A stretch of DNA of 42,814 nt, taken from Ruminococcus sp. (GTDB lineage: Bacteria; Bacillota; Clostridia; Oscillospirales; Ruminococcaceae). Position 1 is the stretch's first letter. Each line of letters opens with the position of its first letter. The position numbers were made by a program, and so were the translations under genes. The stretch covers positions 1 through 42,814 of the forward strand of contig JAGAQC010000065.1 in NCBI GenBank assembly GCA_017622925.1. Direction: 5' to 3'. The notes under the pieces are model-generated. The model saw nothing but the letters and a program-made list of their open reading frames with translations, made no database searches and was not told the DNA's origin. This document shows positions 33,980 to 36,517 of this stretch, in pieces.

Positions 33980-36067
33980 ATGGGATCTGATACAATGCTT
34001 CATTTAATTACTGAATACCCCCGTGAATGGGACGAATTTAAACAGGGTCGCTGGTGTACCACTTCCGTTAATGTCCGTGACTTCATTAAGAAGAACTACA
34101 CCCCATACGACGGAGACGAAAGTTTCCTCGCCGCTCCGACAGAAGCTACAAAGCAGCTTTGGGAACAGATAACCGAACTCAGCAGACAGGAACGTGAAGC
34201 GGGCGGTGTTCTCGATATGGATACTAAAATCGTTTCCACTATTACTTCTCATGAGGCAGGCTATCTTAATAAAGACCTTGAACAGATAGTCGGACTTCAG
34301 ACCGATAAGCCTTTCAAGCGTTCACTTCAGCCCTTTGGCGGAATACGTATGGCTCAGAACGCCTGCTCTCAATACGGCTATGAAGTTGACCCTGAAATCG
34401 TAAAAATTTTCACCAAATACAGAAAGACCCACAATCAAGGCGTTTTTGACGCTTATACTCCAGAAATGAGAATGGCGAGAAAATCCGCTATTATTACGGG
34501 ACTTCCCGACGCTTACGGCAGAGGACGTATTATAGGCGATTACAGACGTGTGGCTCTTTACGGCGTTGATATGCTTATCGCCGATAAGAAGCATCAAATA
34601 GATACCTCACTCGTCCGCATGACTTCAAAAAATATCCGTCTACGTGAGGAACTTGCCGAGCAGGTTCGCGCATTGGAGGAGCTTAAAGAACTCGGACACA
34701 TTTACGGCTTCGATATTTCACGCCCTGCATCTAACGCTAAGGAAGCTGTTCAATGGCTTTATTTCGGCTATCTCGCTGCTGTCAAGGAGCAGAACGGCGC
34801 AGCTATGTCATTGGGACGTACATCGACTTTCCTTGACATCTACATTCAGCGTGACCTCGAAAAAGGTCTTATCACCGAAGAACAGGCTCAGGAGCTTATC
34901 GACCACTTCATTATGAAGCTGCGTATCGTGAAGTTTGCGCGTACTCCCGAATATAACGAGCTTTTCTCGGGCGACCCCACTTGGATAACCGAGTCTATCG
35001 GCGGAGTTGACGTTGACGGTCACCACCTCGTAACCAAAAACAGCTTCCGCTATCTGCATACTCTTGACAACCTCGGTACAGCTCCCGAACCTAACATGAC
35101 CGTTCTCTGGTCACAGAAGCTGCCCCGAAAGTTCAAGGAATACTGTGCAAAAATGTCTATAAAGACCTCGTCAATACAGTATGAAAACGACGATATGATG
35201 CGAGTTATCCACGGCGATGACTATGCTATCGCCTGCTGTGTATCGTCAATGCGTGTAGGCAAGGAAATGCAGTTCTTCGGCGCAAGAGCCAACCTTGCTA
35301 AATGTCTGCTTTATGCTATAAACGGCGGTGTCGATGAAAGAATGAAGGTTCAGGTCGGTCCGAAGTTCCGTCCTGTTGAAGGCGATTACCTTGATTTTGA
35401 CGATGTATGGGACAAATATGAAGCCATGATGGAATGGCTTGCCGGACTTTATGTTAATACCTTGAACGTTATCCACTATATGCACGATAAATACTGCTAC
35501 GAAAAGCTGCAAATGGCTCTCCATGACAGAGATGTCAAGCGTTATTTTGCTACGGGTATCGCAGGACTTTCAGTTGTTGCCGACTCGCTTTCAGCTATAA
35601 AATACGCTAAAGTCAAGGTGATACGCGACGAGGACGGAATCGTTACCGATTATGAGGTCGAGGGAGATTTCCCGAAATACGGCAACAACGACGACAGAGT
35701 TGACGATCTTGCCGTTACGGTCGTTCGTAAATTTATGGACTGCGTGAGAAAGCACCACACTTACCGTGACGGAGTTCCCACTATGTCCATACTCACGATA
35801 ACTTCAAATGTTGTATACGGCAAAAAAACGGGCAACACTCCCGACGGCAGAAAAATGGGCGTACCTCTTGCTCCCGGAGCTAACCCGATGCACGGCAGAG
35901 ATACTCACGGTGCGGCAGCTTCTCTTGCTTCTGTTGCAAAGCTTCCGTTCCGCCACGCTCAGGACGGTATCTCAAATACGTTCTCGATCGTCCCCGACGC
36001 TCTCGGCAAGGATATGCAGGTATTTGTCGGAGATATTGATCTTGATAAGCTTAGAAACGAGGACTGA
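33980..36067 (+). CDS. pflB: pyruvate formate-lyase body lacking its glycyl-radical domain
   Basis: This encodes 695 residues, about 65 fewer than E. coli PflB (759-760). The match to the E. coli type is close throughout. Catalytic cysteines are C419-C420 in [12 protein letters not shown], followed by the conserved [12 protein letters not shown] and [14 protein letters not shown]. The protein ends shortly after [12 protein letters not shown], the point where other PFLs continue into the C-terminal domain with the RVSGYAV radical glycine. That domain is encoded separately at 36278-36517. The enzyme converts pyruvate and CoA to formate and acetyl-CoA. ATG 33995 is an alternative start, as neither has a strong ribosome site. 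No activating-enzyme gene (pflA) is in the window. Confidence 0.92.
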
Positions 36068-36069
36068 TC

Positions 36070-36273
36070 ATGATAGATACCAAGAATCCCGAGGAACTCG
36101 CAAAGCTTATAGATTCGCTTATGGCAGGCGGAAGCGGTCATGTTAATATAATTGCAGATACAGACAGCTCGGAGGTAAAGGTCAATGTTGTGAACAGCGC
36201 CGAATTCTGCGGAAAAGGCGCATGCTGTCAGCCAACCGAGAACTCTGTTGACTATAATGATCAGGAGGAATAG
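36070..36273 (+). CDS. small Cys-containing protein of the split PFL cluster
   Basis: The protein has 67 residues, with GAGG seven bases before the ATG, and lies 2 bases past the PFL stop. The first half ([17 protein letters not shown], about 12-28) resembles the start of the separate radical domain ([20 protein letters not shown]). Aligned L, D, G, H and N residues agree. The radical glycine segment is absent; instead there is a Cys motif FCGKGACCQ (C47, C52, C53) and an acidic tail. Small accessory subunits with Cys are known for other glycyl-radical enzymes, such as 4-hydroxyphenylacetate decarboxylase. It may be a partial paralogue acting as subunit or chaperone. The family is not recognised. 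Confidence 0.7.
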
Positions 36274-36277
36274 TTTT

Positions 36278-36517
36278 ATGGACAATCAGAAACAGGTCGA
36301 TAACCTTATCGAATTACTGGACGGCTACGTTGAAAAAGGCGGTCATCATCTTAATGTAAACGTATTTACCAAAGAGACGCTCCTTGACGCTCAGGCTCAC
36401 CCCGAAAAGTATCCTCAGCTTACAGTGCGCGTTTCGGGCTATGCCGTTAATTTTGTAAAGCTTACAAAAGAGCAACAGGACGACGTAATTTCACGTACAT
36501 TCCACAGCACTTTATAA
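36278..36517 (+). CDS. stand-alone glycyl-radical domain of pyruvate formate-lyase
   Basis: The protein has 79 residues from ATG 36278, with AGGAGG eight bases upstream. It corresponds to the last part of a normal [19 protein letters not shown], then [17 protein letters not shown] with the radical Gly54, then [14 protein letters not shown] at the end. E. coli YfiD/GrcA is a comparable free domain that rescues oxygen-damaged PFL. Here, though, the main PFL lacks its own domain, so this protein should be required for activity. It is the third gene of the cluster, with a stem-type terminator in the repeat at 36551 after it. Confidence 0.93.

Follow-up and report, generated by a model that had tools for sequence, protein, structure and literature searches.

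Among glycyl radical enzymes, pyruvate formate-lyase (PFL) is the textbook example of a single chain, for which free radical domains are known to serve as spares in emergency repair. In benzylsuccinate synthase and 4-hydroxyphenylacetate decarboxylase, the catalytic subunit is joined by small cysteine-bearing proteins, the radical domain staying on the large chain. Here, we analyze a locus of Ruminococcus sp. (assembly GCA_017622925.1, contig JAGAQC010000065.1; the window is the whole stretch of 42,814 nucleotides, numbered from its first letter), where the PFL body and its glycyl radical domain, GrcA3, are encoded by separate genes with a third, "middle" gene between them. In this locus, what is a spare elsewhere appears to be the sole copy.

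The body is similar to PflB (TIGR01255, an equivalog model; Escherichia coli structures 1H16 and 2PFL) in its alignment, cysteine pair and invariant residues, but differs from it in having a separate radical polypeptide, a non-homologous tail and a third protein. A free glycyl radical domain is also seen in the spare parts GrcA/YfiD and Y06I of phage T4 (TIGR04365; PMC8683613), and GrcA3 aligns with residues 67–126 of YfiD; however, it comprises only 79 amino acids, is devoid of the disordered N-terminus of YfiD (~60 residues) and has no full-length PFL to repair. The likeness to NF038360 (rad_fix_GrcA3, an NCBIfam model of the exception kind) is one of family name and score, GrcA3 passing the family cut-off, and we found no paper mentioning "GrcA3" in the open literature. 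According to PMC8683613, the two-chain E. coli construct tPFL:truncYfiD, cut at residue 695, is catalytically competent once activated; it is engineered, whereas the natural cut lies near residue 680 and is accompanied by a cysteine module. Two PDB chains named "Formate acetyltransferase," 38la_A (687 aa) and 38lb_A (739 aa), are PFL chains without the radical domain, the latter belonging to the bacterial split clade described below; GrcA3 has no match at E 0.001 among the chains of these two entries. As GrcA3 is a named family of NCBIfam and radical-domain-less PFL chains are present in PDB, such bodies are already known to others. An account of a split PFL was not found in the open literature (subscription journals and preprints being outside this scope), nor did we find descriptions of the middle protein and its cysteine module, of the transfer of this module to the body tail or of the viral forms.

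The body and GrcA3 as parts of one enzyme

The body gene (33980–36067, plus strand, as all features below) encodes 695 amino acids, although its true start may be ATG 33995 (M6), where the alignment of a close relative begins. The body alone scores 1134.8 bits against TIGR01255 (cut-off 994.2), the match covering positions 2–667 of the 744-position profile; residues 15–681 align with residues 9–680 of E. coli PFL, and the tail following ALGK is non-homologous. All conserved PFL residues are retained, including the catalytic pair C419–C420 (IACCVSS, codons at 35234–35239), invariant in an alignment of 16 PFL sequences. The body ends at about E. coli residue 680, and the glycyl radical domain, which PFLs of the TIGR01255 type carry on the same chain, resides on the separate GrcA3 gene (36278–36517). 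This 79-aa protein matches the remainder of the TIGR01255 model, its residues 2–77 corresponding to E. coli residues 677–757. Thus, the body (E. coli 9–680) and GrcA3 (677–757) together make up one PFL, cut near residue 680.

GrcA3 starts with ATG 36278, separated from the body stop by 210 nt, and is preceded by an AGGAGG ribosome-binding site (36263–36268) overlapping the end of the middle gene. Its Gly54 (RVSGYAV, codon at 36437–36439) is the predicted glycyl-radical residue. It scores 166.4 against NF038360 (cut-off 158) and is below the cut-offs of TIGR04365 (95.2 vs. 170) and GrcA2 (107.5 vs. 145). Hence, both parts of the split that an earlier note had read from this DNA, a body with C419–C420 ending before the radical domain and a separate 79-residue domain with its own AGGAGG 210 nt downstream, were borne out. 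The note had allowed for two or three subunits but left undescribed the open reading frame between the two genes, a conserved third component of 67 amino acids (36070–36273). The body, the middle gene and GrcA3 all behave as protein-coding genes: the ratios of median dN and dS are 0.021, 0.147, and 0.020, respectively, which are rough values (seven genomes, 21 pairs, dS of 1.4–1.7; undefined in three, 10 and six pairs, respectively).

The genome is a 2.5-Mb metagenome-assembled genome (MAG) of 76 contigs, 87.77% complete and 2.98% contaminated, the window being contig C44. It contains one PFL, the body, and one free radical domain; matches to the glycyl radical domain PF01228 are GrcA3, the end of the body and the anaerobic ribonucleotide reductase NrdD encoded beside NrdG. 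A radical-SAM PFL activase is encoded on contig C71 (TIGR02493, 296 bits, cut-off 231.75). When 55 genomes were searched with TIGR01255, 51 had a split body (in fragments in three cases) and a separate radical domain, two had fused PFLs (G298, G270), and two had none. No second PFL above the TIGR01255 cut-off was observed in any of the 51 split genomes, 28 of which have a completeness of 90% or more and a contamination of 5% or less; the scores of other glycyl radical enzymes there are 18–210 bits. Therefore, neither the studied genome nor 51 further split genomes have a full-length PFL that GrcA3 could repair. A complete PFL elsewhere, with this cluster not expressed, had been named in the note as a finding that would overturn the idea of the separate domain as the only PFL-type radical source, and the genomes support the idea. 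Two of 35 same-genus genomes, G011 (96% complete) and G022 (64% complete), have no PFL at all.

Taking all this into account, we consider the locus to encode an obligate multi-chain PFL, with a probability of roughly 0.8, as judged from sequence data. GrcA3 would dock in the body barrel in the manner of the native C-terminus, and the PFL activase would install the radical on Gly54, from which it would move to C420, so that pyruvate and coenzyme A (CoA) are converted to acetyl-CoA and formate. Upon cleavage of the radical domain by oxygen, the small subunit would be swapped and the body kept in use; such rapid replacement of the cleaved piece is a plausible benefit by analogy with E. coli YfiD (PMC8683613). 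The locus offers a natural system for studying docking, activation and exchange of the radical domain after oxygen damage, and is relevant to how rumen and gut Ruminococcus produce formate.

The split in relatives

To describe the locus in relatives, we used a set of named loci, the best 80 of 579 encoding stretches, mostly titled Ruminococcus, with a few Alistipes, Clostridiales, Clostridia, and Oscillospiraceae. As selection by similarity favors split relatives, counts in this set reflect consistency, not frequency. All 80 loci encode a body without the radical domain; one (L100) stops at a contig edge, and in all 79 others GrcA3 is next. The middle gene is present in 78 of these 79 loci, so that the three-gene order, a check proposed in the earlier note, is indeed found in relatives. 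The sole exception, L075 from R. flavefaciens MA2007, has a second, complete three-gene copy in the genome (L264). The distance between the body and the middle gene is −32 to 17 nt, and that between the middle gene and GrcA3, 2 to 245 nt; in 58 of 78 cases, the middle gene overlaps the stop region of the body, and GGAGG or AGGAG is located within 22 nt upstream of GrcA3 in 75 of 79 loci. The split is also present in cultured strains, namely, R. flavefaciens FD-1, 007c, ATCC 19208, YAD2003, and ND2009. The activase gene pflA comes after GrcA3 in all 19 split loci examined from other genera; of the 63 named loci whose flank exceeds 1200 nt, 14 show this order (within 285 nt in 13 of them).

At larger distances, GrcA3 scores above the cut-off in 20 of 295 genomes (148 genera) of the order sample, representing nine GTDB families, with frames of 81–152 codons from stop to stop; in the phylum sample of 398 genomes, it does so only in the genome of the window and in G549, which belongs to another order of the same class. 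Sixteen of the 20 genomes, all from outside Ruminococcus, have two genes instead of three, and their bodies end with DC-xx-GAC-xSPTLFEGLD or a close variant, both cysteines and PTLF being invariant in all 16. The middle protein is present in the remaining four (the genome of the window, G028, G226, and G123) and in G549; in G123 and G549 it ends with ACxxPTLHEG(L/I)D, which ties the motif of the Ruminococcus middle protein to that of the body tail. The arrangement, reported in the earlier note for this DNA, has proved to be old and widespread and to include a conserved middle component, both of which the note missed. Such split PFLs are liable to be annotated as truncated. One more candidate, a 79-aa radical domain in G236, was rejected as a split because of a contig edge.

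The middle protein and alternative explanations

The middle protein consists of a glycine-less half of a radical domain, a cysteine motif and an acidic tail. Its radical-domain-like part (residues 8–30, 36091–36159) was recognized by profile comparison and by a profile search of genomes. In one comparison, the middle profile and GrcA3 aligned over their first halves (probability 85.3, E 6e-6, 31 columns). Among the 295 genomes, the middle profile yielded full matches in four, all of them split; partial matches (model positions 3–36, 20–25 bits) comprised only GrcA3, in 19 of the 20 GrcA3 genomes, and the ends of two full-length PFLs (G163, G304). Since partial matches are confined to GrcA3 and PFL ends, the middle protein is, to judge from these profiles, half a radical domain that lacks the glycine loop and carries a new cysteine end. 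The latter contains CGKGACC (C47, C52, C53; 36208–36228), with A51 and C52 conserved without exception among 28 middle proteins; in a set of 86 (85 distinct), each with two to four cysteines, [APS]C..P[TNV] is present in 85 and C-x(2-6)-[APS]C in 83.

In Pfam, PHROGs and NCBIfam, no family accounts for this protein: it matches no Pfam family up to E 1 (PF01228 included; the radical glycine is absent) and no PHROGs up to E 0.01, and in NCBIfam it hits one HAD model only, far below the cut-off. The small subunits of benzylsuccinate synthase and 4-hydroxyphenylacetate decarboxylase did not match it in Pfam or in the PDB sequence search; in contrast to these enzymes, the radical domain here is off the large chain, and the middle protein has no acceptable sequence match among solved chains. 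Rat RAP (whole-sequence E 0.00085, best-domain i-E 4.4) and troponin C, retrieved in the PDB search, were taken as chance hits, and the resemblance of the cysteine motif to ACC of the PFL active site, compared by eye, was also dismissed as chance. The tail profile matched nothing beyond the shared part of PFLs.

The N-terminal half of the middle protein corresponds to the helix and strand preceding the glycine loop of the radical domain, that is, to the region 696–733 of E. coli PFL, which is needed to recruit YfiD according to PMC8683613. The locus thus bears on the role of this region, whose counterpart here seemingly has a gene of its own. The middle protein, or the cysteine tail of the body in the relatives, might act at the joint of the body and GrcA3, a less certain step of the proposed mechanism: possible roles are those of a detached recruiting element and of a placeholder in the empty barrel, and its cysteines could serve as a thiol guard or a redox switch by the radical site. 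A more detailed scenario, which we regard as speculative and rather doubtful as a whole, is that a duplicate of half the radical domain lost its glycine, gained the cysteine motif and later became the body tail in one branch. In this scenario, the split itself would be old and common to large phages and a clade of gut bacteria, and the new component would recruit the replaceable radical subunit as a reversible plug and thiol guard of the empty radical site. If so, repair would belong to the design of this enzyme and not be an exceptional event.

Two alternatives deny a multi-chain enzyme altogether. The locus could be a PFL that no longer functions and is decaying, its spare part being a remnant and formate being produced by another route; the MAG is incomplete and has no other PFL, and the enzyme is dispensable in the genus, given the two of 35 genomes without it. 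Yet all three genes are under strong purifying selection, the same split recurs in all 80 named loci with the catalytic residues intact, the genes have ribosome-binding sites and overlapping starts, and GrcA3 spans nine families of the order sample, which leaves decay very improbable. Even less credible is joining of the pieces into one chain during translation, by read-through or frameshift. The body and GrcA3 do share a frame in the window, but seven stop codons, from TGA 36065 of the body itself to TGA 36191, precede GrcA3 in this frame, the two genes lie in different frames in 48 of 79 loci, and the spacings are variable. These stops and frames mean that neither stop read-through nor a single sequencing error explains the split; an error fusing the frames, considered as a refutation in the earlier note, is rejected also given the recurrence in cultured strains.

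A third alternative accepts the multi-chain PFL but places the middle protein outside the working complex, as a separate regulator, chaperone or activase adaptor. We regard it as a real possibility, though not the one we would choose: only half of the radical domain is retained, the protein is missing from one operon and from the viral versions, and it is modeled with low confidence; on the other hand, its gene is located between the body and GrcA3 in all Ruminococcus-type operons but one, and the fusion of the cysteine motif to the body in all 16 two-gene relatives points to the body itself. Several observations count against the multi-chain reading with a working middle subunit. The structure model, in which the parts were joined artificially into one chain and the fused PFLs of the alignment served as a guide, has a predicted local distance difference test score (pLDDT) of 29–63 at the body end (residues 601–690), 23–40 in the middle protein and 26–73 in GrcA3. 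The E. coli tPFL pairs are poorly activated, with 0.5 and 2.7 uM radical vs. 15.9 for cPFL:YfiD (PMC8683613), which suggests that a split arising in nature depends on some additional feature. Conservation of the middle protein (dN/dS 0.147) is lower than that of its neighbors, and the first cysteine of its motif is absent in L039, L096, and L101. Finally, L075 lacks the middle gene, and neither the middle protein nor the tail is present in the viral split PFLs; hence, a PFL can be split without the middle protein. An earlier structure model (pLDDT 45.1, predicted template modeling score 0.44) was set aside due to a shallow alignment, and its fold searches were not used.

Origin of the split and viral forms

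Quick trees of PFL bodies were constructed with the radical part excluded, support being given as the Shimodaira–Hasegawa-like approximate likelihood ratio test (SH-aLRT) only. The first two trees omitted 15 full-length PFLs, whose cut site was missed by the pattern, some duplicates, and the fragments L130, L178, L199, and L218; the second was also thinned by hand. The bacterial split bodies, both three-gene and two-gene, form one clade (99% SH-aLRT), which also contains the fused PFLs G298 and G270; in the second tree, all split rows and two fused PFLs are in one clade (96). After the addition of 16 full-length rows, the fused L119, L187, L190, and L199 are placed beside the viral pair, and the 40-row bacterial clade retains 99. 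As three-gene forms are found on both sides of the first fork of the clade and 15 two-gene forms constitute one subclade (99 in the first tree; fragment L178 left out), the middle gene probably predates the body tail. Constraining all split rows, both PDB chains and L180/L181 to be together improved the tree by 21.8 log units over the free search (p-value of the approximately unbiased test, p-AU, 0.778); with the split rows alone, the constrained tree was 48.2 log units worse, but the test did not reject it (p-AU 0.086, and 0.125 for a smaller set). A single origin of the bacterial and viral split forms is thus favored by these trees, not shown, and the fused L180/L181, two full-length PFLs inside the split clade, may be re-fusions or unsplit relatives.

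The viral forms come from three IMG/VR contigs of 110, 79, and 73 kb (L240, L219, and L220, the last two near-identical), each with a PFL body and an adjoining free radical domain of 77 aa (L240, 2977–5270; L219/L257, 506–9260; L220/L253). Their bodies end with SLGK(D/E)ED, and the cysteine module is absent from all three. The radical domains score just below the GrcA3 cut-off (156.7 and 157.1 vs. 158). The gene order in L219/L257, where TGA encodes Trp, is NrdD, NrdG-like, radical domain, PFL body, ThyX-like (assigned by eye), and GyrB-like. Of 18 viral loci with a GrcA3-like domain (L246–L263), three have a PFL body within the flank (up to 8 kb) and the other 15, the domain alone; by analogy with Y06I of T4, these body-less domains are possibly spare parts for the host PFL.

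A separate case is L216 (1458–4117), where a PFL2-type glycyl radical enzyme (a 770-codon frame) is followed by a radical domain (110 codons, RVAGYSAYF) in another frame; this is either another split enzyme or a frameshift.
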